Program-made: the position numbers and the translations under genes
Shown here: piece by piece, positions 95 through 21,243 of the stretch
How positions within the stretch are numbered: position 1 is the first letter of the stretch
Layout of the letters: the number at the start of each line of letters is the position of its first letter
Notes under the pieces: generated by a model
Databases searched by the model: none
What the model saw: only the letters and a program-made list of their open reading frames with translations
What the model was told of the DNA's origin: nothing
Source: a virus
Direction: 5' to 3' (one strand)
Length of the DNA stretch: 22,108 nucleotides
IMG/VR virus record: IMGVR_UViG_3300042402_005139
Coordinates: 1 to 22,108 of that record

Positions 95-265
95 TCAATA
101 TGATTTAGTAAGATTATGATATACTATAAATTCTTTAAAAGCGTTATAGATTTGATTAGCTTCGTCGGTATCCGGAGCGACCTGTCGTCCTTTTACATAG
201 AATCCACTAGAATCCATGCGGATCATTTCTTCGTGATCAATAACAAATTTAATTGAATCTTCCAT
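95..265 (-). CDS. Conserved small phage protein (56 aa), unknown function
   Basis: The product starts MEDSIKFVIDHEEMIRMDSS and is acidic, with a predicted beta-hairpin followed by a C-terminal helix (EANQIYNAFKEFIVYHN). I chose the ATG at 265 over an in-frame ATG at 283 because the six extra residues (MLLYSS) look non-coding and overlap a possible promoter at 274-302. Neither start has a Shine-Dalgarno sequence. The 42-base gap upstream is the longest in this operon, which fits an internal promoter. I do not recognise a function; similar short proteins occur, as far as I recall, in T4-like marine phages. Confidence 0.7.
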   Translation of the reverse strand: MEDSIKFVIDHEEMIRMDSSGFYVKGRQVAPDTDEANQIYNAFKEFIVYHNLTKSY

Positions 266-273
266 AGAACTAT

Positions 274-302
274 ATAGTAGCATCAGAGTGAATAAAGGTC
301 AA
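274..302 (-). promoter_or_regulatory. Possible sigma-70-like promoter, leaderless layout
   Basis: On the minus strand TTGACC (297-302) lies 17 bases before TACTAT (274-279), and the ATG at 265 follows eight bases later. The -35 box matches consensus at five of six bases and the -10 box at four of six. The geometry repeats that of the stronger promoters at 3573-3601 and 17194-17222, and it falls in the only sizeable gap of this operon. Taken alone it would be weak evidence. Confidence 0.4.
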
Positions 303-307
303 TTGGT

Positions 308-571
308 TCATAAAAATCTTAATGCGAATTCGGTAGCTACTCGTTCATCTTTAAAAATATAAACAGTATACGCAAGCTCCAAAGTGGCATGCTCGCTCAT
401 ATCATATTGAATGTAATACAACCAATCATCACCATTTAACCAATGACGAATTTCACCTTCGCGGCCGCCGTATCTAACCGAACCTACGCCGGCATTGGTC
501 CTAAGCCATTCGTCAACTCGATCGGCTTGTGTTTCCATTTTTGAATATGGTATTCTTATTTCACTTGGCAT
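308..571 (-). CDS. Tiny phage protein with FALRFL tail (87 aa)
   Basis: No named family is recognised. The protein begins MPSEIRIPYSKMETQADRVD, has a helix with 'VDEWL' (an alpha segment also seen in the neighbouring protein as 'IIAWLEEN'), a Trp/Tyr-rich beta region (HWLNGDDWLYYIQY) and ends VYIFKDERVATEFALRFL. That tail matches the pattern seen in at least five other proteins of this operon: a beta strand, an acidic turn, Ala/Thr, then F-x-L-(R/K)-aromatic at the extreme C-terminus. It overlaps the next gene by 11 bases, which implies coupled translation. It is probably an early accessory protein, but no role can be assigned. Confidence 0.75.
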   Translation of the reverse strand: MPSEIRIPYSKMETQADRVDEWLRTNAGVGSVRYGGREGEIRHWLNGDDWLYYIQYDMSEHATLELAYTVYIFKDERVATEFALRFL

Positions 572-839
572 ACGAATATTTTAATGCAAACTTAACTGTC
601 ATTTTAGGGTCCATAATTTCCACGACCTTTTTAAGTTGCGGTCCTCTTATCTCAAGTTGCCATAAACTAGTCTTCCCAGCATATTTTGCTATTTGACTGG
701 TAGCACTACCGTAATAAGGAATAGGATCATTATTACTATTACGTTTATTGGCAAGTTCGATATTTTCTTCTAACCAAGCAATTATTTGTTTATGATCGCC
801 TTGAACATTTTCAAATCTGATACGTGTGTGCAAATTCAT
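561..839 (-). CDS. Tiny phage protein with FALKYSYAK tail (92 aa)
   Basis: The product (MNLHTRIRFENVQGDHKQII...) has a predicted strand, a helix containing AWLEEN, a basic and polar middle, and a C-terminal strand-helix ending VKFALKY followed by five extra residues. The N-terminal strand-helix layout resembles that of the adjacent 87-residue protein, so the two may be diverged duplicates. Its ATG overlaps the stop codon of the upstream oxygenase-like gene as TAATG, and its 3' end overlaps the next gene by 11 bases. Function unknown. Confidence 0.75.
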   Translation of the reverse strand: MNLHTRIRFENVQGDHKQIIAWLEENIELANKRNSNNDPIPYYGSATSQIAKYAGKTSLWQLEIRGPQLKKVVEIMDPKMTVKFALKYSYAK

Positions 840-1249
840 TATAGACTCATTGAAATACCCACCCTGGGGCCTAAAGGTGTTACATTATGATAAGTGTGTT
901 TTGGAACAATTATAAGATCACCTGGTTCAAGCAAGTACTCGGTATTATCATCAAAACTCCAAATAGTTTGTCCTTGTGCCTGCCAAAAGAACACATTGTC
1001 GCTGTCCTGATGTCTACCAAAGCTTCCACCGTGTACAGTTATATTCATATATAAGTGGGCCACTCTAAGTTGCAAATCACTTAATACATGTTGCACTTCG
1101 GATATAAGATGTGCTCGGTGTGATACAAAAAATCCAAAACATTTATGTTTGATAATGTCGTTATCAATTACAGATTGATTAAAATTACTTAAACAACTAT
1201 CCCATGTTGGAACGTTGGTATTATAGGATTTTTTAAATTCTATATTCAC
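839..1249 (-). CDS. Miniature JmjC/cupin 2-oxoglutarate oxygenase, ribosomal-oxygenase-like
   Basis: With a GTG start at 1249 the protein has 136 residues. Its second half matches the core of Fe(II)/2-oxoglutarate JmjC (Cupin_4) enzymes of the RoxA/YcfD and MINA53/NO66 type: a GGSFGRHQDSDNVFFWQAQG segment with the H-x-D metal pair at His80 and Asp82, then YLLEPGDLIIVPKHTYHNV with the third metal ligand at His121. YcfD hydroxylates an arginine of ribosomal protein uL16, so ribosomal or peptidyl hydroxylation is a reasonable guess. The usual dimerisation and winged-helix domains are absent, and the whole protein is about a third of YcfD length. I chose GTG because it overlaps the upstream stop as GTGA; a longer frame would start at 1300. 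Substrate and activity are inference. Confidence 0.72.
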   Translation of the reverse strand: MNIEFKKSYNTNVPTWDSCLSNFNQSVIDNDIIKHKCFGFFVSHRAHLISEVQHVLSDLQLRVAHLYMNITVHGGSFGRHQDSDNVFFWQAQGQTIWSFDDNTEYLLEPGDLIIVPKHTYHNVTPLGPRVGISMSL

Positions 1250-1443
1250 CCGCCCCACCGTAACAAAAAAATTGTCGCATCTTCCTGTCGCTTGAAACAA
1301 AAATACAATCCATTATTACGCCAGTTGCCGCTTTTAAAATTATTATAACAATACGCTTCTAATCGACATGTTTGTTCCCAAGCATCAGGCTCGGGCAACA
1401 TTCTAAACTGATGTGGCCAGTACTTTTTGTTATAGGTCTGCAT
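1246..1443 (-). CDS. Tiny phage protein with FLLRWGG tail (65 aa)
   Basis: This short protein begins MQTYNKKYWPHQFRMLPEPD. It is rich in aromatic residues, has Cys26 and Cys32 (TCRLEAYCY), a glycine turn (NWRNNGLYFCF) and ends KRQEDATIFLLRWGG. The end is the clearest example of the shared operon tail E-D-A-x-x-F-L-L-R-W-G. It overlaps the upstream gene by 14 bases and the downstream oxygenase by GTGA. Function unknown; the tail suggests a small alpha/beta fold in which the final aromatic strand completes the core. Confidence 0.75.
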   Translation of the reverse strand: MQTYNKKYWPHQFRMLPEPDAWEQTCRLEAYCYNNFKSGNWRNNGLYFCFKRQEDATIFLLRWGG

Positions 1444-1708
1444 AGTCAGCTGACAAGTTGATTAGGCATGCATGTTTTTCTTCTTGCCATCGAGTCAGCC
1501 AAGGAGTACGATCACATTCGACAATGTGTTGCAATACTGCATTACGGCTAGACGATTCAATGGCCTCACCCAAAAATAAACTCATAACTGGTTGGCTCCA
1601 ATGATATATTACGATACTCATTGAGTTGGTAGGATGAATATTCCATGCCCACTCGTGGGGATGATCTACTAGTGGAGGTATGTCTTCTAGGTGTTTAGGT
1701 TTTGTCAT
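1430..1708 (-). CDS. Hypothetical phage protein (92 aa)
   Basis: The product starts MTKPKHLEDIPPLVDHPHEW and carries several Trp and His residues (HEWAWNIHP, HWSQPV, TPWLTRW). Unlike its neighbours it does not end in the F-x-L-R-W tail; its end is INLSADYADL. A purine-rich AGAGG lies eight bases before the ATG, so this is one of the few genes here with a visible ribosome binding site. It overlaps both neighbours by 14 bases. I do not recognise the family. Confidence 0.7.
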   Translation of the reverse strand: MTKPKHLEDIPPLVDHPHEWAWNIHPTNSMSIVIYHWSQPVMSLFLGEAIESSSRNAVLQHIVECDRTPWLTRWQEEKHACLINLSADYADL

Positions 1709-2090
1709 GATAATCCTCTATTACAACCCAACCAAGTTGTTTAAGGTCCTGCCTAATTTCATCTGTGATGATACTTTCGGGCACATATTTTGCTGGATTA
1801 AATCCTTGTGCTTCGGCAGCAGCATAATCAATTTCTTTAGGATCACCATGTATGCCTGAACAATACCAGTCCATATAATCACCTTCGCAACGAATATCTG
1901 CAACAACACCGCCGGCATAACGCCAAGTACACGACCATGCTTCGTCTTTTAAGATAGGCATTACGTCTAATTTTTGAAAAGCATTATTACACAGTGCCGC
2001 ATAAAGATTTTGTGCATAAGAATCGCTGTCTCGTACTTTATGTACAAACCAGGCTGCATCTTTCATATCTCGTTCAAGATCAGCGTCCAT
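1695..2090 (-). CDS. Conserved hypothetical protein of T4-like marine phages (131 aa)
   Basis: The protein MDADLERDMKDAAWFVHKVR... contains YAALCNNAFQKLDVMPILKD, a Trp-rich core (EAWSCTWRYAGGVVADIR), GDYMDWYCSGI and a C-terminal TDEIRQDLKQLGWVVIED. From memory, the 'CSWRYAGGIIADMR...GDYIDWYCSG...DLKKLGW' pattern is widely conserved in cyanophage and pelagiphage T4-like genomes, always as a protein of unknown function. I chose the ATG at 2090 because it overlaps the upstream stop codon as TAATG; an in-frame ATG four codons earlier lies inside the previous gene. It is one of the strongest markers that this is a T4-like aquatic phage. Confidence 0.78.
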   Translation of the reverse strand: MDADLERDMKDAAWFVHKVRDSDSYAQNLYAALCNNAFQKLDVMPILKDEAWSCTWRYAGGVVADIRCEGDYMDWYCSGIHGDPKEIDYAAAEAQGFNPAKYVPESIITDEIRQDLKQLGWVVIEDYHDKT

Positions 2091-2329
2091 TATGCATCCC
2101 ATCTTAATAAAAAATTACTAGCATCGGATTCGTTTTCAATTACAACCACCATACCTTGTTGATGATCGCGACCACGAGGCAAGCACTGATCCATCCAGGC
2201 ATAAATTTCCTTTTCGTTGTCGGTCCACCATCTAAAGTCTGTTATTAGTATATAATGATAGGGCATCTCCTCGTCAAACGGACCGGTGGCAATAAATCTA
2301 CCTTTTTCAGCCGGAAACACTACACTCAC
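2090..2329 (-). CDS. Tiny phage protein with FLLRWDA tail (79 aa)
   Basis: I place the start at a GTG at 2329 that overlaps the upstream stop as GTGA; a longer frame would begin at a GTG inside the previous gene. The product begins MSVVFPAEKGRFIATGPFDE, has a Tyr/Trp-rich middle (YHYILITDFRWW), a helix with AWMDQCLP and the tail MVVVIENESDASNFLLRWDA. The helix A/E-W-(L/M)-x followed by a strand and the D-A-x-x-F-L-L-R-W ending is shared with its neighbours. Function unknown. Confidence 0.72.
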   Translation of the reverse strand: MSVVFPAEKGRFIATGPFDEEMPYHYILITDFRWWTDNEKEIYAWMDQCLPRGRDHQQGMVVVIENESDASNFLLRWDA

Positions 2330-2517
2330 GGTTTTTGATCCGATTCTTTGAGTGCTTTTACTGAACACAAGGCAACAAAGCCTTTGTTATCCCATTCTTT
2401 TCTAGCCGTCATACACTCTTGGTAATTGGGATATTCTTTTTTGTAAATAAACTTCATCTTGGGTGGTGGATCGCTCCAAAGTTGTACAACCAATATCCAA
2501 GGCATCAAATCTAACAT
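2326..2517 (-). CDS. Small protein with hydrophobic N-terminus (63 aa)
   Basis: The N-terminus MLDLMPWILVVQLW is hydrophobic and short, followed by DPPPKMKFIYKKEYPNYQE. It is compatible with a membrane anchor or a signal-like segment, but is too short to be sure. Two cysteines (residues 35 and 51) in a predicted helix-strand region (CMTARKEWDNKGFVALC) could pair if this part is exported. The in-frame ATG at residue 5 is an alternative start. It ends with GTGA overlap onto the next gene. From memory, similar short membrane-leader proteins occur in cyanophages. Function unknown. Confidence 0.62.
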   Translation of the reverse strand: MLDLMPWILVVQLWSDPPPKMKFIYKKEYPNYQECMTARKEWDNKGFVALCSVKALKESDQKP

Positions 2518-2518
2518 A

Positions 2519-2770
2519 TCAATTCCTTAATATTTCAAAAGTCCATTTAGGACTATTGGAGTCTACATCAAACCATAAGTGATTCTCTTCATCTAACCAA
2601 ACAGTAAAACCTTTATTGCTAAAATAATCCAATGCTATTTCTTTAAACACTAGATCCGTGTAATTGGGTGTAGTTTTTATTTGCATGTGAATATCATGCA
2701 GTTCATCGATATAATGTTTATATATAACATTACAAAACCATTCGGGTGCGTTTTTCATACGAAATTGCAT
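2519..2770 (-). CDS. Hypothetical phage protein (83 aa)
   Basis: The protein starts MQFRMKNAPEWFCNVIYKHY, with a helical first third, then ALDYFSNKGFTVWLDEENHLWFDVD, which looks like a helix followed by a beta-hairpin. The end (PKWTFEILRN) replaces the F-x-L-R-W tail of its neighbours but keeps an aromatic strand plus L-R. It may be a divergent member of the local family. It sits one base from each neighbour. Function unknown. Confidence 0.7.
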   Translation of the reverse strand: MQFRMKNAPEWFCNVIYKHYIDELHDIHMQIKTTPNYTDLVFKEIALDYFSNKGFTVWLDEENHLWFDVDSNSPKWTFEILRN

Positions 2771-2771
2771 A

Positions 2772-2993
2772 TCATCCCCACTTTAACAAAAACATTGTTA
2801 GTTCTTCTTGATTGCGAAATCGAAACATTTCAAAACTGGTTCTACGACCACAATTGTTTTGAGCACACCATAACTGAACAGGATCTAGATCATGATCTCT
2901 AAGACCGGTTTGTGTGATTGGTCCGTGATCGTAAGCTATCCTGGCATACAATGTAAGTTCCCGATTGGGATGCTTTTCCCACACTATTTTCAT
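2772..2993 (-). CDS. Tiny phage protein with FLLKWG tail (73 aa)
   Basis: The product MKIVWEKHPNRELTLYARIA... has an N-terminal strand, then LWCAQNNCGRRTSFEMFRF with two cysteines five residues apart, and ends RNQEELTMFLLKWG. The order (strand, W-C helix, C-G turn, F-x-F strand, acidic turn, F-L-L-K-W-G) is close to that of the proteins at 1246-1443 and 2090-2329, which supports a paralogous origin. It overlaps the upstream gene by four bases. Function unknown. Confidence 0.75.
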   Translation of the reverse strand: MKIVWEKHPNRELTLYARIAYDHGPITQTGLRDHDLDPVQLWCAQNNCGRRTSFEMFRFRNQEELTMFLLKWG

Positions 2994-3340
2994 GCGATTC
3001 GTACACGATTCTTTTCAGCACGAGCACTGTACAGTCGATGGCCGCGGCTTCTAAACAAATCTGCTGCTGTTTGTGGATCCGTCTCAAACATTTGCTCTAT
3101 ATCTGTTTTGTTGATGCTATGGTCACAATCTACGGCATACAGTTCGTAATGTCTCTGCTCATTGAACTTGGCCCTAAGGATCATGTTTTGTATCAACTGG
3201 TTAAGTGGATTACGGACCGTCTCTTGATTATTTAACACTCTGAATGTGTTGTCTCTATCCCACTGTTCATATTCAGTAATTGGAACCACACTCTCCAATC
3301 CTTCTTCGCACCAGTAAACAAGATATGCATTGGTAGTCAT
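2990..3340 (-). CDS. Conserved hypothetical protein of T4-like phages (116 aa)
   Basis: The protein begins MTTNAYLVYWCEEGLESVVP and continues with ITEYEQWDRDN, a central ILRAKFNEQRHYELYAVDCD, and a C-terminal MFETDPQTAADLFRSRGHRLYSAR. From memory, 'YLVYWCNEGLE...MLRARFN-QRHYEIY...MFE-DPQ-AAD-IR-RG' is a recurrent protein in marine T4-like genomes with no assigned function. It sits as the second gene of the promoter-proximal operon and overlaps both neighbours by four bases (ATGA type). No catalytic motif is visible. Confidence 0.78.
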   Translation of the reverse strand: MTTNAYLVYWCEEGLESVVPITEYEQWDRDNTFRVLNNQETVRNPLNQLIQNMILRAKFNEQRHYELYAVDCDHSINKTDIEQMFETDPQTAADLFRSRGHRLYSARAEKNRVRIA

Positions 3341-3567
3341 AGATATTTCAATCTAAAAAAAGTAGCAGCATCTTCGTCAACAAAGTCCAGTCGTGTATCG
3401 TGTACCCAATGACCATTGATTGGATTATGATCCTGGTGATGACGCACAGTAAATCCCAATGTTTCGCGAAGGCGCCAAGATATCATGGTCGTGATTTTAC
3501 CATAGTCCGAATCAATTTTTGGACGGATTTTATTCCATTCGCGATTGTCAAGAACTATAGTTGTCAT
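3337..3567 (-). CDS. First gene of small-gene operon, FRLKYL tail (76 aa)
   Basis: The protein MTTIVLDNREWNKIRPKIDS... has a helix, ISWRLRETLGF, a His-rich turn (RHHQDHNP) and the tail TRLDFVDEDAATFFRLKYL, a variant of the shared D-A-x-x-F-x-L-(R/K)-aromatic ending. Its ATG lies only five bases after a perfect -10 box, so its transcript should start at or within one or two bases of the start codon and have no leader. No Shine-Dalgarno sequence is possible there. It is probably expressed immediately on infection by host RNA polymerase; its role is unknown. Confidence 0.75.
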   Translation of the reverse strand: MTTIVLDNREWNKIRPKIDSDYGKITTMISWRLRETLGFTVRHHQDHNPINGHWVHDTRLDFVDEDAATFFRLKYL

Positions 3568-8765: not shown

Positions 8766-9975
8766 AATGTATGACTTCGTATAAGTGATTGTCTTTTGGA
8801 TATTTGCGCCATGGATCTACCACCGTGCTTCCGGGTTCTAGATCACAATAAAATTCCTGCAGACTTTGCTCTCCGGTATATCCATAGGTCACTTCTCTAT
8901 TATGCGCTAAAAATGCAATTACAGGCACGCCATCAAATGGAGGTTGATCGTTGGTTAGTGGATCCACATAAAAATATTTTGCTTGAATTTCGTCTAAGTA
9001 ATGTCCTATTAATAAACTATAACTGCCGTCACAATAGTCTACATCTGGCTTGTATGCCTTTCCCATGATGAAAATAGGTAAGTTTTTTTCTATTTGTATT
9101 CGTTTTAAAAATTTAGCTAGATTTTTTGCCTGCTGTTCTCTGGCATGCATCACAGTATCAAATATATCATATCCAAGATTTAAATTTTCTGCCAACCAAC
9201 GTAAGGCAATGTTATCTCTTGGGTGACACGGGCCAGCGTCACCCATTCCCGCAGTCATGTATTTTGAACTTATTATTCTTATAGTGCTGTTAGCAAGAGC
9301 ATCAGTAACTACATCAACATTGATATTTCCGTTCTTCATTGCAACGTCTTGAATCATGTTAACTAATCCAACTTTGGTGCTTATAAATGTATTATAAAAT
9401 ATTTTAATACTCTCTGCTTCATCCCATGTGCCTACTACATAACGTGGGCTGTTTTGCATCAACGGTTTATAAAAATCTATCAGTTGTTTAGCATCGCCAG
9501 TCTCGTTACCGTCTTCGGTTCCAATTATTACCATTTCGGGATTAATCATATCCCATTCCACACTTCCCATTGCAATTAGATAAGGATTGTAAATAAAACG
9601 TGCATCAGTAATGCATGGGCGTAGTTCTCGTCTGACTGTTCCGGGAAGAACAGTAGAAATAAGAACAACCAACTGATCCGGACTTGCCCACACATCAATT
9701 TCTTTTAGTACTTCTTTTACTGTGGTATAATCAAAATCTTTGTTTGGTAAGTGCGTAATTGGCTTAGATCCGTCATAGTCAGGATCATGCGGAGTTTGTA
9801 CTGCCACAAATACAATATCTTTTCCGGTTACTGCTCCACGTAGATTATCTGAAATTTTAATTACATCGCTATGTTTTGGGTAAATATCATAACCAGTAAC
9901 TTCGTAATGTATTGCCATTGCTTCTGCACAAGGCATACCCAATTTACCAATTCCAATAAATCCAACTTTTTTCAT
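8743..9975 (-). CDS. UDP-glucose/GDP-mannose 6-dehydrogenase family enzyme
   Basis: The N-terminus KKVGFIGIGKLGMPCAEAM is a Rossmann NAD-binding motif (G-x-G-x-x-G). Lys191 in AESIKIFYNTF and the thiohemiacetal nucleophile Cys250 in GMGDAGPCHPRDN are the family catalytic residues. A C-terminal UDP-binding-like domain follows (IMGKAYKPDVDYCDGSY). The enzyme oxidises a nucleotide sugar C6 alcohol to the uronate. At 410 residues it is of usual length. GGAG lies six bases before the ATG, and a TATAAAAA element lies about 20 bases further up, which could be a T4-type late promoter. In context it may supply an uronic acid for glycosylation of phage DNA, virion or host surface. Sugar specificity is not determined. 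Confidence 0.88.
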   Translation of the reverse strand: MKKVGFIGIGKLGMPCAEAMAIHYEVTGYDIYPKHSDVIKISDNLRGAVTGKDIVFVAVQTPHDPDYDGSKPITHLPNKDFDYTTVKEVLKEIDVWASPDQLVVLISTVLPGTVRRELRPCITDARFIYNPYLIAMGSVEWDMINPEMVIIGTEDGNETGDAKQLIDFYKPLMQNSPRYVVGTWDEAESIKIFYNTFISTKVGLVNMIQDVAMKNGNINVDVVTDALANSTIRIISSKYMTAGMGDAGPCHPRDNIALRWLAENLNLGYDIFDTVMHAREQQAKNLAKFLKRIQIEKNLPIFIMGKAYKPDVDYCDGSYSLLIGHYLDEIQAKYFYVDPLTNDQPPFDGVPVIAFLAHNREVTYGYTGEQSLQEFYCDLEPGSTVVDPWRKYPKDNHLYEVIHYGNTRMV

Positions 9976-11127
9976 ATGTTCTCCGTCGATAATTTTTATA
10001 ATGTATTAGCCAGTAATTTACTTAATCCGTTAAAGATGCATTATAGCTATTTTTATCCGTTTGGCACTTTTAATTTACAGTCCATAAGTCTAAACTCTCG
10101 TACCAATTATATTGATGGTTCGTTGGGCGTACTTTTCTGGGATCAAGAGCCATTCAATGCAAATCTTTTCAATAAAGTAATATGCAACTCTACAGAAATA
10201 TTTCATCCTCAAAACTTAATTATAGCAAATAGCGATACCTGCATCGAGGCAGGTAAAATTTCAAACTACAACTGGAATTATTTTTTCCACGGATTTGCCG
10301 CATTAGATTGGTATAGAGATCTTTACTACTTGAACGAAAAAAGTAACAATTTTGATAAAGTATTTATCACGGTTAATAGACTAATTACACAAGAAAGATC
10401 GTACAGGTTGTCACTTGTTGCTAAATTAATAAAAAATAATTTACAAGAAAACGGATTAATTTCTTGTAAATTACAAGATACTATAAAAGGTTCTTGGAAA
10501 AACGAATTATTAGATCCAGAAAGTAAACTTACAAAAAAACAAAAAATTGAAATATTTGAAACATTTTCCAAAATAGATAATGATTTGATTTTAGATAATT
10601 CAGATGTACCAGGTGCAAGTAGTGCTATAATCAATCACGACCAGCGTGTGCTTTTCCGAAAAGCTTTCTGCCACATTGTTACTGAAACAATGTTTTATCC
10701 AGATAAATTACATTTGACCGAAAAAATTTTTAGACCGATAGTTTTTCAACGACCATTTATTTTAGCTGGTTGCAAGCATAATTTAAAATATTTTAAAAAA
10801 TATGGATTCGAAACTTTTAGTAATTGGTGGGATGAAAGTTATGATGAAGTTGAGAATCACGAGACTCGGCTAGAAATGGTTGTATCAATTGTTAAAAAAT
10901 TAAATCAATATAATTTAAATGATTTACAAGACATGTATAACGAAATGCTGCCTGTGTTAGAACATAACTATGAACATTTTTTTGGAAATTTTAAAAAAAT
11001 AATAGTTGAGGAAATGATTGATAACTTTAAATTAAATTTAGATAAGTGGAACGACACCAATAAAATTAAATATAACTATACAAACATATTGAATTTTAAC
11101 GAAATAAAACAACGATTAAGTAACTAA
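9976..11127 (+). CDS. Glycosyltransferase-like protein, plus-strand (383 aa)
   Basis: One of only two plus-strand genes. I propose the ATG at 9976, which forms the palindrome CATATG with the ATG of the divergent dehydrogenase; an ATG at 10036 is possible, and neither has a strong ribosome binding site. The frame is open upstream to 9871 but that part is antisense to the dehydrogenase. The C-terminal core KLHLTEKIFRPIVFQRPFIL followed by AGCKHNLKYFKKYGFETFSN matches the plus-strand gene at 20266-21243 and resembles the donor-site T-E-K region of GT-B glycosyltransferases of the fucosyltransferase (GT10) type. The gene is very AT-rich. It is convergent with the peptidase gene, sharing overlapping stop codons. 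Substrate unknown. Confidence 0.7.
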   Translation: MFSVDNFYNVLASNLLNPLKMHYSYFYPFGTFNLQSISLNSRTNYIDGSLGVLFWDQEPFNANLFNKVICNSTEIFHPQNLIIANSDTCIEAGKISNYNWNYFFHGFAALDWYRDLYYLNEKSNNFDKVFITVNRLITQERSYRLSLVAKLIKNNLQENGLISCKLQDTIKGSWKNELLDPESKLTKKQKIEIFETFSKIDNDLILDNSDVPGASSAIINHDQRVLFRKAFCHIVTETMFYPDKLHLTEKIFRPIVFQRPFILAGCKHNLKYFKKYGFETFSNWWDESYDEVENHETRLEMVVSIVKKLNQYNLNDLQDMYNEMLPVLEHNYEHFFGNFKKIIVEEMIDNFKLNLDKWNDTNKIKYNYTNILNFNEIKQRLSN

Positions 11128-11879
11128 GATTTGTCTATATGCGAAATTATTAGTTGTTCCATATCTCTTATTCTTGTTCTTGTGGTAGTGCTGTTTAATA
11201 CCACAAAAAGTTTTTTCTTTCCATCTATCATCACACTCATTACCAAGCAGCCGCCGCTGGCACGTACATAACCAGTTTTGCTAACTACTACATTATATTT
11301 TGACACAAGAGGATTGGTATTACTGTATCGCCACTTCAAGATCTTTTTCTTCTTAGATCTCAATATTTCACCCACGCTTTGGTTGCTGGCATGAACTATT
11401 TCTGGATACCGTTCGGCTGCGAGTAGTAATTTGATTAAATCTCTAGGTGTACTTACATTTCCATTGTCAAGCCCGCTGCTGTCGGCAAATTTTGTTTCGT
11501 ACATACCTAATACTTGTGCTTTGTGATTCATATCATCTATACAAGTTTTGTAACCTCTATGATAATATTCGCACAACATTTTAGCGGCCTGATTGTCTGA
11601 TTTTATGATTGCTAAATTTATTAGTTGACCTCTAGTAACCGGTAATCCTCTTAATTTTTTGTCTAGTGTGGTTGTTAGATTTGGATGAGCATCAAGAACA
11701 ACCATTGCTGTCATTAATTTTGTAATACTGGCAATAGGTTGTTGTATTTCAATATTTTCTGATTCGATGACATTACCATCGCTGTCGGCTATTAACCAAG
11801 ATTTAGCTAATATATTTGTAGAGGAAACAGGATAACTTACAATCACAAGGATTGTCCAAAGTAATAAATTTTTTATCAT
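11124..11879 (-). CDS. Secreted D-alanyl-D-alanine peptidase, S11/PBP7-like (251 aa)
   Basis: All three penicillin-recognising motifs of S11 peptidases are present: Ser51-Ile-Thr-Lys54 (IASITKLMTAM), Ser94-Asp-Asn96 (IIKSDNQAAK) and Lys201-Thr-Gly203 (VSKTGYVRASGG). The N-terminus MIKNLLLWTILVIVSYPVSS is a hydrophobic signal peptide, so the enzyme acts in the periplasm on peptidoglycan stem peptides or cross-bridges. The length and lack of a C-terminal amphipathic anchor fit the PBP7 (D,D-endopeptidase) group. It is coupled by ATGA to a 53-residue membrane protein, suggesting a cell-wall or lysis role. The gene ends in stop-codon overlap with the convergent glycosyltransferase gene. Confidence 0.88.
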   Translation of the reverse strand: MIKNLLLWTILVIVSYPVSSTNILAKSWLIADSDGNVIESENIEIQQPIASITKLMTAMVVLDAHPNLTTTLDKKLRGLPVTRGQLINLAIIKSDNQAAKMLCEYYHRGYKTCIDDMNHKAQVLGMYETKFADSSGLDNGNVSTPRDLIKLLLAAERYPEIVHASNQSVGEILRSKKKKILKWRYSNTNPLVSKYNVVVSKTGYVRASGGCLVMSVMIDGKKKLFVVLNSTTTRTRIRDMEQLIISHIDKS

Positions 11880-13204: not shown

Positions 13205-13228
13205 AAAAAGCCCCTTGCGGGGCTTTTT
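13205..13228. terminator. Strong bidirectional intrinsic terminator
   Basis: AAAAAGCCCC, TTGC, GGGGCTTTTT forms a perfect 10-bp stem with a four-base loop; on the minus-strand RNA the loop reads GCAA, a stable GNRA tetraloop, and the stem is followed by a U-tract. It lies nine bases after the stop of the autotransporter-like gene and should end that transcript, separating it from the coiled-coil gene cassette. Confidence 0.92.
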
Positions 13229-13236
13229 ATACTAGT

Positions 13237-15255
13237 TTAAAAGCCTATTCGCAACATTATGCTGGCTGCTGTGCTTGCTATACTGTCTTTTTTAAGATGT
13301 GTAGCTCCTACAACGACAGCAACTTTATCTGTCAGCTGTTTACCAACACCCATACGCGATACTAAAACACTATCAGAATTTTGACTTGCTTCGGCATAAA
13401 AATTAAAAGAATTTACTTGACGATCAAATCTTAAGCCATAGTGTGTGGTATTGGTTGTAGTATTCACTGCGTCATAGCTCATTGCAGTCAATACACTTCC
13501 AGCTTCCGTTACTGCGTCCCTACGGTTATTTTCTACTCGAGCACCCACAAATGGTCTTAGTCCACGAAAATCTGGAGTATACAGTCTGGCTGTAAACCAG
13601 TAATCATCACCATCTGTGCGAGAGTTGTTTGAATAACCAAGTGCAGGTAAACTGTGTGTGGAATCTACGGCATTACGTGAGTACCCTAACTGCGAACTTA
13701 GGATCCAATTTTTAACGATCGTGGTACTGTTCAGAGCAATCATATCTTTATAAAGATTACCAGAGGAATCGTTGCCGCTCATGCTTGAACTTGAACGACT
13801 GACATTTAGGCCAACAACCCAATTGTTTCTAACCAGTTTATCTAAACCAAAACCATAACGACTAGTTGAAATCGTATAACCATCGTTAGCATATTCTCCA
13901 GCTCGTTCTCCCAAGGTGTAGAAACTAATGCTTCTGCCTGCATCTACATTTCCACGGAACACAAGATCACCATCAACAATCTTGTGACGATTTAACACAT
14001 CGTTGGAATTCAGTAGATTAGCGAACGAGTTAGTTTGTGCTAACACTGTATATTGATCAACTCTGGTTGTGTAATCTTGATTGGCGCTTGTTGTCGCTAC
14101 CTGATTAAAAGTTGTAGTGGTAGTCACAACTTGATCTGTAGTTGAGGTAGTGGTCACCGGAGTGCCGTTGGTGGTAGTAGTAGATCCATCACTATAAGTA
14201 GTTACCGTAGTCGGTGTTGTGACTGTGGTCGTTGTTACCGGTGTAGTATCAGTGACTACTCTGGTGACAGGTGTAGTAGCAACCACAGTTGTATTTCTTG
14301 TGATTGTGAGAGTCTTATTGTTTGCAGAGCCTCTGGTGTCAGTCACTGTTTCTACCACTGTGGTTGATCCTGGTGTGTCCACAACACTGGTTGTTGTAGT
14401 ACCATTGGAAGAACTGCTTGTTACAGTAGGTGTACCTGGTGCAGTTGATACCACCGTAAGAGATCCACTTCCTGATCCGCTGCTGCTGCCGCTGAAGGAT
14501 GTAACCGACAATGTACCGGTGTATCCACCTGGTGTTGCTGCTGTAGTACCACCATTGGCATCATAGCCGCCACCGCTCATGTTTGCTGTGACGCCGGCTG
14601 CTGTGGTTGTACACATTACAGATCCACTGGTTGTACCGCAAGCACCCCAGCTGGAAGAACTGGTCCAACCTTGTGCAAATACACCCGATGAATCAAGACC
14701 AAACTCTGGATTGTACAATATGTTGCTGCCTGCAGAACCACCTGTTGGCGTGAATGTCACTGTTGGTACACGCCATTGTGGACCATAGTTACCTGCCCAC
14801 CATGATGTATCTGTACCAATCATGATAACTTTCACATGAGTGACACTGGCACAACTGCCTGCAGTACCACAATCAGTAGAAGTCAATGATAGTGTACTCC
14901 AGGCCTCGCTGTTGTCACCAGGACCAGAACTCCAGGCATCCATTTGTAGTAGATTACCGGTGGCGTAACTGGTAGTACTAGAACCCAATAAGGTTCCGCC
15001 ATTATAGTATTCTAATTTTAATTGACCAGTGTCGTGTTGCAATGGTCTTCCGCCGCCTGCATGTGCCTCAACGGTAAATGTTAATGTACCTCCATTTTGC
15101 ATGTTTGAATCAAAAACTACTATTTGACTAATAGTACTGTTGGCAGTATAAGACATGTTTGCACTATTGTAATCGGTGCCTGACTCGAACGCATTTACTA
15201 CTGAATTGAAACACACGGCGGCCACGATCGCAATGATCTTGCCCCAAGATTTCAT
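13237..15255 (-). CDS. Phage-encoded autotransporter-like outer-membrane protein (672 aa)
   Basis: Residues 1-22 form a signal peptide (MKSWGKIIAIVAAVCFNSVV, cleavage likely after VNA). Residues ~23-255 are a beta-rich Gly/Ser/Thr passenger with two Cys pairs (DCGTAGSC, CGTTSGSVMC). Residues ~265-410 are a low-complexity Thr/Val/Ser region (TTTTVTTPTTVTTYSDGSTT). From ~residue 430 to the end the sequence alternates as amphipathic strands (YGFGLDKLVRNNWVVGLNVS, FRGLRPFVGARVENN) and stops with MLRIGF, a C-terminal phenylalanine as in BAM-inserted beta-barrels. This is the plan of a type V autotransporter or outer-membrane adhesin. In a phage it could alter the host surface, for example to block other phages. 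AAGGAG precedes the ATG. Function is inference. Confidence 0.8.
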   Translation of the reverse strand: MKSWGKIIAIVAAVCFNSVVNAFESGTDYNSANMSYTANSTISQIVVFDSNMQNGGTLTFTVEAHAGGGRPLQHDTGQLKLEYYNGGTLLGSSTTSYATGNLLQMDAWSSGPGDNSEAWSTLSLTSTDCGTAGSCASVTHVKVIMIGTDTSWWAGNYGPQWRVPTVTFTPTGGSAGSNILYNPEFGLDSSGVFAQGWTSSSSWGACGTTSGSVMCTTTAAGVTANMSGGGYDANGGTTAATPGGYTGTLSVTSFSGSSSGSGSGSLTVVSTAPGTPTVTSSSSNGTTTTSVVDTPGSTTVVETVTDTRGSANNKTLTITRNTTVVATTPVTRVVTDTTPVTTTTVTTPTTVTTYSDGSTTTTNGTPVTTTSTTDQVVTTTTTFNQVATTSANQDYTTRVDQYTVLAQTNSFANLLNSNDVLNRHKIVDGDLVFRGNVDAGRSISFYTLGERAGEYANDGYTISTSRYGFGLDKLVRNNWVVGLNVSRSSSSMSGNDSSGNLYKDMIALNSTTIVKNWILSSQLGYSRNAVDSTHSLPALGYSNNSRTDGDDYWFTARLYTPDFRGLRPFVGARVENNRRDAVTEAGSVLTAMSYDAVNTTTNTTHYGLRFDRQVNSFNFYAEASQNSDSVLVSRMGVGKQLTDKVAVVVGATHLKKDSIASTAASIMLRIGF

Positions 15256-15270
15256 TTTGTTAGCTCCTTT

Positions 15271-15308
15271 AAGGTAGACTCTTATTATTTTTATTTGATG
15301 TCTACTTT
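15271..15308 (-). promoter_or_regulatory. Leader stem-loop directly upstream of autotransporter ribosome binding site
   Basis: AAGGTAGAC (15271-15279) and GTCTACTTT (15300-15308) are inverted, pairing over nine positions with one G-U, around a 20-base AT-rich loop. In the minus-strand RNA the 3' arm abuts the AAAGGAG Shine-Dalgarno sequence (about 15266-15272), so the hairpin could change ribosome access or mark a processing site. Confidence 0.5.
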
Positions 15309-15344
15309 AATATTTACGCCAAAAAATCTAGTAATTATGTGGCC

Positions 15345-15419
15345 TTACATTCTATGTGGTGGTGTTACTGGTACCGGTTGCGGTGGGTTTTTTGCGGGGC
15401 GGTGTGCAAACCAACTCAT
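15345..15419 (-). CDS. 24-residue proline-rich micro-protein
   Basis: The ATG at 15419 has an excellent AAGGAG five to seven bases upstream, as good as any in the window. The peptide begins MSWFAHRPAKNPP, has the repeated Pro-x pattern QPVPVTPPH and ends HRM. A longer in-frame ATG at 15437 overlaps the ribosome binding site and is less likely. It lies between a terminator and the autotransporter gene, with 89 bases before the latter, so it would share that transcript. No signal sequence or membrane segment is visible. It may be a leader peptide or a tiny functional protein; no family is recognised. Confidence 0.5.
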   Translation of the reverse strand: MSWFAHRPAKNPPQPVPVTPPHRM

Positions 15420-15437: not shown

Positions 15438-15461
15438 AAAAAAACCTGGATTAACCAGGTT
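15438..15461 (-). terminator. Intrinsic terminator after small secreted protein gene
   Basis: AACCTGG (15443-15449) and CCAGGTT (15455-15461) form a perfect seven-base stem with a five-base loop; on the minus strand it is followed by seven U residues (15438-15444). The 5' arm overlaps the stop codon of the secreted protein gene, so it should end that transcript. Confidence 0.85.
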
Positions 15462-17222: not shown

Positions 17223-17409
17223 CCATGTCGCAAAGAACTTGTTTAATAAATTCCTTGCTCATGCATTCGTTATCACAATAGATAACATCATCTTTGATAT
17301 AAAATTTGAATAATCCAAATCCTATGTTTGTTGATGTCCATTCTACTGTAAACTCATTGGACAAGTTTGTAGAGTTTGGTATTTTGTCTAGTAAAGATTC
17401 GACAGTCAT
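17197..17409 (-). CDS. Hypothetical phage protein (70 aa)
   Basis: The protein begins MTVESLLDKIPNSTNLSNEF, then has a beta-rich middle (TVEWTSTNIGFGLFKFYIKD) and a C-terminal helix with three cysteines (YCDNECMSKEFIKQVLCDMV, plus a final Cys). The start overlaps the clpS stop as ATGA. No family is recognised. The downstream end of the gene doubles as the next promoter. The cysteine set (four in about 25 residues) could bind metal, but the spacing is not a standard zinc finger. Confidence 0.68.
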   Translation of the reverse strand: MTVESLLDKIPNSTNLSNEFTVEWTSTNIGFGLFKFYIKDDVIYCDNECMSKEFIKQVLCDMVDNCVLTD

Positions 17410-17714
17410 TGTGCTGCTTCTAATTTAACGTTTAGCGGGAATCCATTGTTACGTGCTAGTAGTGTAACTTCTATACCTTTTTGTTCAGCCATTTCATATG
17501 GTAGTGTTGCTACCACAGCCGATCCTTCTTCGTGAATCTTTATTGTTACATTCGTAGCATCTTCTTCGGCATAGTTGAATACAATCTTTAAACTTTCTAC
17601 TACAAATTCCATAGTTGTCTGTTCGTCGTTTATATAGATTACGTTGTACAAACTAGGTTCTGGAATATTTGTCTTGGGAGCAATCTTAGGGCGTACAATA
17701 GTTTCAGTAGTCAT
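17406..17714 (-). CDS. clpS: ClpS-like adaptor of the Clp protease (102 aa)
   Basis: After a 22-residue tail (MTTETIVRPKIAPKTNIPEP) the domain reads YNVIYINDEQTTMEFVVESL, then NVTIKIHEEGSAVVATLPYE, MAEQKGIEV and NGFPLNVKLEAAQ. This aligns with ClpS: Y-x-V-x-L-x-N-D-D-x-T-P-M-E-F-V, V-H-x-x-G-x-A-V, and P-L-x-(C/V)-x-x-E. The N-D pair and the M-E-F-V helix form the N-degron pocket. ClpS delivers N-end-rule substrates to ClpAP; a phage copy could redirect host proteolysis or act with the chaperones upstream. Note D-E rather than D-D after the Asn, and V instead of C near the end. It follows hsp20 after a 9-bp hairpin. Confidence 0.87.
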   Translation of the reverse strand: MTTETIVRPKIAPKTNIPEPSLYNVIYINDEQTTMEFVVESLKIVFNYAEEDATNVTIKIHEEGSAVVATLPYEMAEQKGIEVTLLARNNGFPLNVKLEAAQ

Positions 17715-17730
17715 AATATCTGTTTGAAGA

Positions 17731-17752
17731 AGCAGGGGAGGTCTCCCCTGCT
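17731..17752 (-). promoter_or_regulatory. Perfect stem-loop between hsp20 and clpS
   Basis: AGCAGGGGA, GGTC, TCCCCTGCT pairs over nine bases with a four-base loop. There is no U-tract after it on the minus strand (TCTTCAAAC), so it is not a textbook terminator; it may be a partial attenuator, an RNase processing site or a 3' protective hairpin for hsp20 mRNA. The clpS start codon follows about 18 bases later. Confidence 0.75.
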
Positions 17753-17766
17753 GTTGTTACATTATA

Positions 17767-18204
17767 TTACTTAGCGAAGGTAATTGCAATCTTCTTAGGT
17801 TGTTTTTCCTCGGGAATAACTTGTTCTAAGTTAATTGACAAAATACCGTCTCTAACTGTAGCGCCACGCACTTCAATACTTTCGCCTAGCGGAAAAGTTT
17901 TGTTGAAGTTGCGTGAGCTAATACCTCTGTGTAGGTATTGTCTTTCTTCGTCTTTCTTGGCTTTATCGCCGCGAATTATTAGAAGATTTTCTTTTAATTC
18001 AACGTCAAGTTCGTTTTCTGCAAAACCTGCCACAGCCACTTCGATTACATATTTGTTTTCTTCTACTTGAATTACATTGTGTGGTGGATAATTATCGCCT
18101 TTGCTGTTTGCAAAAGTTCTATTGAGTTCACCAATAATGCGGTCAAACCCAATAGCGTGACGGTGAATAGTTGGTAAATCAAAAGTTGTGATATAGGTTG
18201 TCAT
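17767..18204 (-). CDS. hsp20: Small heat-shock protein, IbpA/Hsp20 class A (145 aa)
   Basis: The N-terminus (HRHAIGFDRIIGELNRTF) matches the start of E. coli IbpA, and YPPHNVIQVEENKYVIEVAV followed by AGFAENELDVELKENLLIIRG is the alpha-crystallin domain (about residues 38-130). The dimer-loop region YLHRGISSRNFNKTFPLGES and the C-terminal KKIAI (I-x-I anchor) are present. It holds unfolded protein as an ATP-independent chaperone for DnaK to refold. T4-like cyanophages also carry Hsp20. Its leader shares with dnaK the motif TAACTTGCTTA, four bases, AAGGAG. It lies 76 bases after dnaK. Confidence 0.93.
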   Translation of the reverse strand: MTTYITTFDLPTIHRHAIGFDRIIGELNRTFANSKGDNYPPHNVIQVEENKYVIEVAVAGFAENELDVELKENLLIIRGDKAKKDEERQYLHRGISSRNFNKTFPLGESIEVRGATVRDGILSINLEQVIPEEKQPKKIAITFAK

Positions 18205-18210
18205 AGTCGT

Positions 18211-18231
18211 CTCCTTTCATTAAGCAAGTTA
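18211..18231 (-). promoter_or_regulatory. hsp20 leader motif shared with dnaK
   Basis: On the minus strand TAACTTGCTTA (18221-18231), four bases, then AAGGAG (18211-18216) and the ATG after six bases. The same 11-mer and the same four-base gap to the Shine-Dalgarno sequence occur before dnaK at 20170-20190. Confidence 0.7.
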
Positions 18232-18243
18232 TGACATATATGA

Positions 18244-18270
18244 GGGTAGGCCCCAACCGGGCACCTACCC
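18244..18270 (-). promoter_or_regulatory. Stem-loop between dnaK and hsp20
   Basis: GGGTAGG (18244-18250) pairs with CCTACCC (18264-18270); an inner CCC/GGG pairing around AACC extends it beyond a small internal loop. It starts 10 bases after the dnaK stop. No U-tract follows on the minus strand, so it is more likely an attenuator, processing or stabilising hairpin than a full terminator. Confidence 0.65.
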
Positions 18271-18280
18271 CGCATATTCT

Positions 18281-20164
18281 TTACTTCTTTTCTGTAAATT
18301 CAGCATCAACTACAGTGTCATCGGCTTTGGGCGTTGCAGACTCCTCTGTAGTCGGTTGCTTTACTTCGTTAATTGCATTGGCGGCAACAAACAATTCTGA
18401 CAATTTGGTTGTAATTGCTTCTTTGTCTGTGCCTGTTACTGTTTCTTCTAGTTCATGTATTTTATCGTTAATTTGCTTCGTCTGATCCTCTGACAGTTTG
18501 CCCTCAACTTCTTTTAGATCAGTGCGAACCTTGTGGATTACAGAATCCGCTTGGTTACGTACTTCAATTAATTCGCGTTGCTTTTGGTCAGCGTCGGCAT
18601 TGGCTTCGGCATCGCGAATCATCTCCTCAATCTGCTCTTTGCTAAGACCAGAATCGGACTTGATAGTAATCTTGTTTTCTTTGCCAGTCTTTTTATCCCG
18701 AGCACTTACTTTAAGAATACCGTTTGCATCTACATCAAGCGTGACTTCAATTTGTGGCATGCCTCTTGGTGCAGGGTCAATACCTTCTAAATTAAATTCA
18801 CCTAGTAGTTTATTATATTGCACAAGTTCGCGTTCACCTTGATAGACTTTGATAGTAACTGCAGGCTGATTATCCTCAGCTGTGCTGAACACCTGACTAT
18901 TTTTAGTTGGTATTGTAGTGTTCTTTTGTATTAGTTTTGTCATCACTCCGCCCATGGTTTCGATACCTAGGCTTAGTGGGGTCACATCAAGTAGTAGAAC
19001 GTCTTTACGGTCGCCACCTAGAACAGCACCTTGTACTGCTGCTCCTACCGCTACTGCTTCATCCGGATTGACATCACGACGTGGTGCCTTACCAAACAAT
19101 TGTTCAACTGCTTCTTGTACCTTAGGCATGCGTGTCTGGCCACCAACCAAGATAACTTCGTCAATATCAGCAGCAGTTACGCCTGCGTCCTTCATGGCAA
19201 TCCGGCAAGGATCAATCGAGCGTTGAATAAGATCTTCTACTAGACTTTCAAATTTGGCTCTAGTAATTTTGATATTTAGATGTTTAGGTCCTGTAGCATC
19301 AGCGGTGATATAAGGTAAATTAACATCTGTTTGTGTGTTATTGGATAGTTCGATCTTGGTACGTTCGGCAGCTTCTTTTAGTCGCTGTAGTGCCATGACA
19401 TCTTTAGATAGATCAACACCGGATTCCTTTTTGAATTCAGTGATCAGATAGTCCATTATTCTTTGGTCAAAGTCCTCACCTCCAAGGAATGTATCCCCAT
19501 TGGTACTAAGTACTTCGAATTGTTTATCACCATCCACAACAGCGATGTCGATAATAGATATATCAAAGGTACCACCACCAAGATCATAAACAGCAATTTT
19601 ACGATCCGTTTTTTCATTTTTGTCTACTCCATAAGCCAGGGCCGCTGCGGTCGGCTCATTGATAATACGCAGGACTTCTAGTCCAGCAATTTGCCCTGCG
19701 TCCTTAGTAGCCTGGCGCTGACTGTCATTAAAATATGCTGGGACAGTAATAACTGCCTGAGTTACTTCATGACCAAGATAGTCTTCGGCAGTTTTTTTCA
19801 TTTTGCGAAGAACTTCTGCACTAATTTGTGGAGGTGCCAATTCTTTGTCATTCGCCCGAACCCATGCATCACCATTTGTGGCTTCCATAATAGTATATGG
19901 CATTAGGTCAATATCTTTTTGAACTGCTTGTTCTTTGAATTTACGACCAATTAGTCGTTTAGCAGCATAGACGGTATTTCGTGGATTGGTTACAGCTTGA
20001 CGTTTAGCACTAGCGCCAACAAGAATTTCGTCAGAAGCATATGCTACAATGCTAGGTGTAGTTCTAGCACCTTCTGAATTTTCAATTACTTTTGGGATTC
20101 CGTTTTCGACCACTGCTACGCAGCTATTGGTGGTACCTAGATCGATACCGATGATTGTACTCAT
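18281..20164 (-). CDS. dnaK: Hsp70 chaperone DnaK (627 aa)
   Basis: Full-length DnaK. The nucleotide-binding domain has [14 protein letters not shown], the [16 protein letters not shown] and [13 protein letters not shown] segments, [12 protein letters not shown] and [13 protein letters not shown]; the linker is [13 protein letters not shown] near residue 390; the substrate domain has [20 protein letters not shown] and ends in a helical lid and the tail [10 protein letters not shown]. All motifs for ATP use are intact. It prevents aggregation and folds proteins with DnaJ and GrpE; neither is encoded here, so host partners are implied. The sequence is close, from memory, to betaproteobacterial DnaK, suggesting host acquisition. 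A stem-loop and the TAACTTGCTTA motif precede AAGGAG and the ATG. Confidence 0.97.
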
Positions 20165-20169
20165 AGTTT

Positions 20170-20190
20170 CTCCTTAAAATAAGCAAGTTA
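20170..20190 (-). promoter_or_regulatory. dnaK leader motif shared with hsp20
   Basis: Minus strand: TAACTTGCTTA (20180-20190), TTTT, AAGGAG (20170-20175), five bases, ATG. It matches the hsp20 leader in both sequence and spacing. Confidence 0.7.
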
Positions 20191-20192
20191 GT

Positions 20193-20215
20193 GTAAGACC
20201 CTATTGGCGTCTTAC
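20193..20215 (-). promoter_or_regulatory. dnaK leader stem-loop
   Basis: GTAAGAC (20193-20199) and GTCTTAC (20209-20215) pair perfectly over seven bases, with two further CC/GG pairs across a one-base bulge around TATT. In the dnaK mRNA this hairpin sits three bases before the TAACTTGCTTA motif. Confidence 0.65.
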
Positions 20216-20265
20216 TAATTTATTTATCAAGTAAATATAATACATTATATAATTGAGGAAGTCAA
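20216..20265. promoter_or_regulatory. Divergent AT-rich promoter region between dnaK and glycosyltransferase
   Basis: Toward dnaK the minus strand has GATAAATA (20221-20228), close to the T4 late promoter core TATAAATA. Toward the plus-strand gene there are two TATAAT hexamers (20236-20241 and 20248-20253), but no good -35 box. GAGGA precedes the plus-strand ATG at suitable spacing. Promoter use is inference from these matches. Confidence 0.45.
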
Positions 20266-21243
20266 ATGAATCATGAAGAATGGATGGTGAGAAAAGCCAT
20301 TAACAACCAAAATTCCAATCTATTTTTCCTTCATGACTGTTTGCAGGAAGAACAAAACTTAGATTACCCAAAAGATAAACTGTTAATAATTCAGCACTCA
20401 CATGGTAACAATCACACTCAAGAACAATATTCACTGTATTCAAAAGTGTTGGGGTTAAAGTTTCTATATGCAACATCTAACTATAGCTACTTCAGAAGTA
20501 ACCACGATAATATAGTTTATTATCCTTACTATTTTTTTGATTTTCTTTATGTACCCGGCCTGACCAAGTACGATATCAAATCTAAACGTCCATACAAATT
20601 GCAATGCTTGAATCTCAATCCATGGGTACATCGTACTATCAATTATTTAGAAATGAGTAAAAAATCATGGTTCTCTGAATGTAAATTTAGTTTTAATTGG
20701 ACTCTTAAATTGGACAATGTTGATACTACAGTCATAGGAGCAAACACGCTGCATGATCTACCCGAACCAGAATCAGACGAAATAAAAAGGCGTTTAGCTA
20801 ATAACACTATTCCTATATTTTTAGAGGATTGGAAGCATACGAATAATCCTATTACCAGTAATCAATGTTTTGTGCATAGAGATTGTTACATTGACTATGT
20901 TACAGAAAATTCAGTCAATCAAGAATTTATAACAGAGAAAACCTGGAAACCTATTTTTTCAGGTCAACTATTTTTAATATTAGGTAGTAAGGGTATAATT
21001 GTGTATCTTAGAAAAATTGGCATTGATACTTTTGATGATATCATTGATCACAGTTACGATCAAGTAGAGGATTTGCGTACAAAAATTTCAATGATTCATC
21101 AACAATTAGATCGTTTAATGACCAGTGATTTGGATACGATTTGGGATAACACGTATGAACGCAGGAAAAAGAATTTGGAATTAGTATATGATCCAGAATT
21201 CCATAATTTTTTACTAGAAGAATTTGTTAAAAAAGTTTCTTAG
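20266..21243 (+). CDS. Glycosyltransferase-like protein, plus-strand (325 aa)
   Basis: The protein (MNHEEWMVRKAINNQNSNLF...) has an N-terminal alpha/beta region (KLLIIQHSHGNN, IVYYPYYFFDFLYVPG) and a C-terminal core NQEFITEKTWKPIFSGQLFL followed by ILGSKGIIVYLRKIGIDTFD, which aligns with the plus-strand gene at 9976-11127 (T-E-K-x-x-x-P-I, then L/F-G-F/I-x-T-F). The T-E-K-x-(W/F)-(K/R)-P-I motif resembles the donor-binding region of GT10-like or related GT-B enzymes. It has a GAGGA ribosome binding site, is AT-rich, and is convergent with bS21, overlapping it by 17 bases. It probably glycosylates DNA, virion or host glycan; substrate unknown. Confidence 0.7.
   Translation: MNHEEWMVRKAINNQNSNLFFLHDCLQEEQNLDYPKDKLLIIQHSHGNNHTQEQYSLYSKVLGLKFLYATSNYSYFRSNHDNIVYYPYYFFDFLYVPGLTKYDIKSKRPYKLQCLNLNPWVHRTINYLEMSKKSWFSECKFSFNWTLKLDNVDTTVIGANTLHDLPEPESDEIKRRLANNTIPIFLEDWKHTNNPITSNQCFVHRDCYIDYVTENSVNQEFITEKTWKPIFSGQLFLILGSKGIIVYLRKIGIDTFDDIIDHSYDQVEDLRTKISMIHQQLDRLMTSDLDTIWDNTYERRKKNLELVYDPEFHNFLLEEFVKKVS

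Follow-up and report, generated by a model that had tools for sequence, protein, structure and literature searches.

The window that we analysed, a freshwater phage sequence of 22,108 nucleotides (positions 1-22,108 of IMG/VR record IMGVR_UViG_3300042402_005139), encodes a probable surface adhesin whose head is mounted, in related phages, on an unrelated anchor made of curlin repeats and encoded in the same genomic slot. The family, fold and architecture of the 672-aa product all identify it, with good support, as a complete classical type Va autotransporter. Judging from sequence comparisons, the adhesin is modular, and its head moves between phages as a cassette. A phage autotransporter as such is not new, since public records contain annotated examples; what would be new, within the papers and databases at hand, is the modular link between the adhesin and the curli operons of phages.

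The adhesin gene is a single open frame whose product matches the Pfam family PF03797 (Autotransporter beta-domain) over aa 446-625 with a score of 52.1 bits (cut-off 26, E 1e-13). In a full-length AlphaFold2 model built on an alignment of 13 sequences, we observed a hydrophobic N-terminal helix at aa 5-15, a beta-rich head (of low confidence between about aa 174 and aa 276), a beta stalk at 277-398 followed by a helix at 401-415, and a barrel formed by twelve strands of one chain (aa 443-671, pLDDT about 77-92). The best Foldseek match is the translocator of NalP (E 3e-11, TM 0.80 on target), and the translocators of EstA, Hbp, AIDA-I and EspP were matched as well. A Sec signal peptide can be read from the sequence, with VNA ahead of F23. 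Thr makes up 40%, Val 15% and Ser 10% of the linker at aa 263-400. The protein ends in ...SIMLRIGF, and a terminal Phe is likewise found in the fully read barrel-bearing relatives, except for L005, which ends in FN. An aromatic C-terminal residue is a feature by which type Va autotransporters are recognised by BAM. A sequence-only reading of this DNA had described a complete outer-membrane protein composed of a signal peptide, a beta-rich passenger, a Thr/Val/Ser stretch, a barrel and a terminal Phe. All of these parts were found, and the barrel prediction and strand count that it had proposed as a check gave twelve NalP-like strands.

Table 1. Features of the adhesin gene and of its genomic slot, in window coordinates.
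Feature	Position	Strand	Basis or remark
Autotransporter adhesin gene	13237..15255	-	Frame, Pfam, AlphaFold2, Foldseek
Signal peptide, aa 1-22 (MKSWGKIIAIVAAVCFNSVVNA)	15190..15255	-	Read from sequence; AlphaFold2 helix 5-15
Head (passenger), ~aa 23-262	14470..15189	-	Putative FBA-like beta-sandwich in first half; motif GTDTSWWAGNYGPQW at aa 147-161
Thr/Val/Ser-rich stalk, aa 263-400	14056..14469	-	AlphaFold2 (long beta strands); composition
Pore helix, aa 401-415	14011..14055	-	AlphaFold2; conserved R-[VI]-D-Q just before
12-strand outer-membrane barrel, aa 443-672	13240..13929	-	Pfam, AlphaFold2, Foldseek
Shine-Dalgarno AAAGGAG	15264..15270	-	8 nt ahead of ATG; conserved in L002, L008, L010, L012
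Terminator hairpin 3' of adhesin gene	13205..13228	-	10 pairs, then T
Terminator hairpin upstream, after preceding gene	15443..15461	-	Conserved in relatives
Upstream flank of slot: DnaK, Hsp20, ClpS genes	17406..20164	-	Common to curli-bearing relatives
Downstream flank of slot: D-Ala-D-Ala carboxypeptidase-like gene	11124..11879	-	Common to curli-bearing relatives

Trimeric autotransporters of type Vc, which are YadA-like, have a four-strand anchor and YadA head repeats. This identity was ruled out, with 12 strands present in one chain and a YadA Pfam match absent. A tail-associated adhesin, similar to the YadA-like structural proteins known from some cyanophages (PMC9146016), would instead be a component of the virion, and adhesive beta-rich heads do occur in phage tails too. 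However, a signal peptide, a 12-strand barrel and a terminal Phe would be useless in a virion, and the same head is found alongside CsgG/CsgF secretion genes, so that we regard a virion protein as very improbable and take the product to be an outer-membrane autotransporter.

The terminator and strong ribosome binding site that had been ascribed to the gene are both present, and an upstream terminator separates the adhesin unit from the preceding gene (Table 1). Ahead of the adhesin gene, at 15274-15316 (-), lie a TAAATA box, an inverted repeat and the Shine-Dalgarno sequence, a layout that is conserved in relatives and has a similar counterpart ahead of dnaK at about 20170-20230 (-). Both TAAATA-linked inverted repeats show weak to moderate hairpin folding (z -1 to -4), and the box and leader at the two genes are possibly a shared late promoter and leader. 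The T4-type late promoter TATAAATA has zero exact copies, its one-mismatch copies are not clearly enriched (79 versus 65 expected), and sigma-70 promoters are not above chance. Directly upstream of the adhesin gene, at 15345-15419 (-), a Pro-rich micro-ORF of 24 aa (MSWFAHRPAKNPPQPVPVTPPHRM) has a Shine-Dalgarno sequence to itself. It is conserved in L002, L008, L010 and L012; L006 and L007 carry a longer MSWF peptide at this position, and another such peptide adjoins csgG in L029.

The local richness in G+C that the sequence-only reading had pointed to is real (0.441 for the adhesin gene versus 0.372 for the window), but it makes a weak argument. Third-position G+C of the head, at 0.354, is near that of other genes (0.18-0.35), and the excess comes from codon positions 1 and 2, indicating that it mostly follows amino-acid composition. 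With ordinary third positions, a foreign origin by base composition is unsupported.

The nearest relatives that we found for the adhesin are phage proteins. One relative, 42% identical, is encoded in L013, a T4-like contig of 157 kb with capsid, portal, sheath and terminase genes; together with the IMG/VR virus record, this agrees with the earlier statement that the gene is carried by a phage. The hallmark genes gp23, terminase, portal and sheath are absent from the window record, and among the records tested only L013 has them. No tRNAs were found in the window, and the adhesin matches no family in PHROGs. Two complete genomes of Synechococcus phages, DSL-LC02 and DSL-LC03, which come from a lake metagenome, encode more distant relatives, and the Synechococcus-phage type of autotransporter is represented by 79 loci in IMG/VR. 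In the Synechococcus phages L016 (10873-12522) and L018 (10789-12648), the autotransporter gene comes directly after a lysozyme or endolysin gene and sits between glycosyltransferase genes and psbA. Since numerous independent phage contigs carry homologues and the head has a dN/dS of about 0.1, the adhesin gene is not a chance presence. We found no literature on phage-encoded autotransporter adhesins, or on their link to curli, in a search that covered few subscription journals.

The DnaK encoded by the phage dnaK-hsp20-clpS cluster of the window is 65-69% identical to the closest phage-collection matches, and the hosts listed for these are Gammaproteobacteria. Small genes follow one another at 95-3567 (-); several of them share a similar C-terminal motif, F-x-L-[RK]-[WYF], and they are perhaps a paralogous family. 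Two isolated genes on the plus strand, at 9871-11127 (+) and 20266-21243 (+), are low in G+C and lie among minus-strand genes; each resembles relatives of the other in L010 and L008.

The head is encoded by a DNA cassette (window 14453-15210) with 88-91% DNA identity to L006 and L007. Elsewhere, dnaK of these two contigs is 73-74% identical to that of the window, and most of their remaining DNA is unalignable. The dS of the head is 0.32 relative to L006 and 0.46 relative to L007, that of the barrel is about 2, and dnaK is saturated or nearly so; the head is under purifying selection, with dN/dS of 0.08-0.10. By contrast, L008, L009, L010 and L012 retain the stalk, the barrel and most of the flanks, with DNA identities of roughly 70-87%, and differ only in the head, which is replaced by an unrelated second one (ADITDG...). 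L039 and L043 have an F5/8 type C domain added behind this second head.

Combinations of this kind could be produced artificially if assemblies were joined through the repetitive Thr-rich linker. The adhesin of L005 (at about 11195) has this appearance, being the same as that of L002 through aa 398 with a different barrel thereafter, on a contig that stops 17 bases past the stop codon. L005 represents either a within-population barrel swap or an assembly chimera, and we place no weight on it. The other combinations recur in mutually differing contigs (L006 and L007; L008/L009, L010 and L012), and the curli forms have whole operons on the same contig, which makes chimeric assembly a highly unlikely source of the head and anchor combinations.

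L011, L027, L029 and the fragment L015 carry the window's head on curlin repeats rather than on a barrel; the Pfam Curlin_rpt match exceeds its cut-off in L015 and falls slightly short of it in L029. The genes ahead of the head-curlin adhesin gene of L011 are csgF (PF10614), csgG (PF03783), curlin (PF07012) and FecR (PF04773), and the csgG match has E 5e-49 in L011 and 5e-51 in L029. This csgF-csgG-curlin-FecR operon, which stands ahead of the head-curlin gene in L011, L027 and L029, is the one described in pelagiphages and Melnitz (PMC7029224, PMC9004378, PMC9599517). It comes after the genes for DnaK, Hsp20 and ClpS, and in L027 and L029 it precedes a D-Ala-D-Ala carboxypeptidase gene; the autotransporter gene of the window, L002, L006, L007 and L008 occupies the same slot between ClpS and the carboxypeptidase. 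Neither CsgG nor curlin repeats were found in the window record, and a barrel (by Pfam) and curlin or CsgG never occur together in the tested records, which are mostly fragments and include four complete genomes.

An F5/8 type C head is also present on both anchors, with about 51% identity between barrel proteins and curlin proteins. At the sequence level, heads of the FBA-like, second unrelated, F5/8 type C and PA14 kinds are mounted on an autotransporter barrel or on curlin repeats with phage CsgG/CsgF. The PA14 case is gp018 of the cultured Pelagibacter phage HTVC008M (L133; 9067-10392 of NC_020484.1, annotated as 'hypothetical protein'), in which a PA14 domain (E 2.7e-6) is followed by curlin repeats and whose gene comes after a FecR-like gene in the curli operon. 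A search of INPHARED with the curlin adhesin of L029 gave zero matches. The phage curli papers PMC7029224, PMC9004378 and PMC9599517 contain no mention of autotransporters, and the two of them searched for PA14 or lectins mention neither.

The roles proposed for phage curli are uptake, lysis control, superinfection defence and 'sibling capture' (PMC7029224, PMC9004378, PMC9599517). If the barrel served to open the outer membrane late in infection, the adjacent lysozyme or endolysin gene in two Synechococcus phages would be readily understood, and a role in lysis has been proposed for phage CsgG (PMC9004378). However, a lysis function for the barrel or for CsgG leaves the conservation of the same head on both unexplained, and none of the neighbours tested in the window is a lysis gene, with the possible exception of the carboxypeptidase gene 1.4 kb off. 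We consider outer-membrane disruption improbable. Because two unrelated secretion routes share the head, display of an adhesin is a better explanation of both systems than a pore serving uptake or lysis.

Copies of the head were also found beyond these two anchors. DSL-LC01, which is assigned to the actinophages by host prediction (PMC10611076), encodes a distant copy of the head together with Thr-rich linkers and hydrophobic stretches near the C-terminus. A pattern search, limited in its reach, through 84,980 genomes of bacteria and archaea gave a sole confirmed head match, in Mycolicibacterium sphagni. The protein concerned (L031, 5325-8774) has 1149 aa and cadherin-like and Ig-like repeats, and carries the phage head at 46% identity. 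These two copies indicate that the head turns up repeatedly in proteins made for the cell surface.

We compared the head with known structures by two lines. A profile of eleven heads searched against the PDB returned only three sequences at E <10, all of them FBA F-box proteins (FBXO6, FBXO2 and FBXO44), with E values of 0.2-0.3 that are not significant; the alignment spans a shared motif, G-x-D-x-x-[WFY]-W-A-G-x-Y-G. A Foldseek search with the AlphaFold2 head, a low-confidence model, ranked the FBA group first (E 3e-5 to 6e-4), with low aligned TM-scores of about 0.35-0.5. The head-only AlphaFold2 model is poor (mean pLDDT 54), and the head has no FBA family match in Pfam. The sequence line and the structure line are each weak to moderate alone; with both combined, our best guess is that the head may be a glycan-binding beta-sandwich.

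On balance, we think that the adhesin is probably made by the infected cell and displayed on its surface as a single-protein system. The signal peptide and the barrel, together with the way in which barrel and curli alternate, lead us to infer, soundly in our view, that display would take place on the infected cell. The protein would be exported through Sec by its signal peptide, and the host BAM complex would insert the barrel into the outer membrane, as the 12-strand fold and the terminal Phe suggest. As is standard for type Va, the head and the Thr-rich stalk would traverse the barrel, leaving the helix in the pore and the head standing off the cell. With moderate confidence, we propose that the FBA-like head may bind a glycan on neighbouring cells, on particles or on the host's own envelope.

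The sequence-only reading, which did not cover the head exchange or the curli link, had suggested that display could block competitors, mask receptors or alter adhesion. As to the most likely effect of display, we lean towards adhesion or aggregation of infected cells, with superinfection exclusion ranked second. In the latter case, the same protein would bring another benefit, the displayed head covering or occupying the host glycan receptor so that other phages fail to adsorb. This fits a surface-displayed and probably sugar-binding head, and a defence of this kind has also been proposed for phage curli (PMC9599517). We nevertheless consider exclusion unlikely, since the head is nearly constant in diverged phages whereas their host receptors should differ, and it is this near constancy that leads us to favour adhesion or aggregation. 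Cultures infected with the curli-bearing Melnitz did not clump (PMC9004378), which speaks against aggregation, although the second curlin gene of Melnitz shows no head domain recognised by Pfam.

More broadly, phages of planktonic bacteria may draw on one pool of glycan-binding heads and mount them on unrelated anchors, namely a barrel, curlin with CsgG/CsgF and perhaps an actinophage membrane anchor, so that head display, and not the pore or the amyloid as such, would be the selected function of phage curli operons. We judge the chances of this to be evenly balanced. The occurrence of one head on unrelated anchors in a shared slot suggests which component is important and opens the curli question to experiment. 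For the curli of aquatic phages, the link to the barrel favours a role in displaying an adhesin over one as a pore, in uptake or in lysis. The window gene could serve as a one-gene surrogate for a multi-gene curli system whose hosts are hard to work with.

Among known systems, the window protein resembles NalP and EstA (PF03797) in its above-cut-off Pfam match and in its helix and 12-strand barrel. It differs from them in being phage-encoded, in its very Thr-rich stalk, and in a head that is not a beta-helix, a protease or an esterase. The FBA domains of FBXO2, FBXO6 and FBXO44 belong to eukaryotic cytosolic proteins, unlike the phage surface head. The autotransporters of uncultured Caudovirales (UniProt A0A6J5L9T3 and A0A6J5R861) have the same barrel type as the window protein, as do those of the Synechococcus phages DSL-LC02 and DSL-LC03, in which the stalk and barrel are homologous and the head is different. 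The phage curli operon is a multi-gene system, whereas the window phage has one gene instead, without CsgG or curlin. Compared with the phage curli (type VIII) of pelagiphages and Melnitz, the operons in relatives of the window phage likewise have FecR followed by a curlin adhesin gene, and they carry the same head as the window protein in the same slot.
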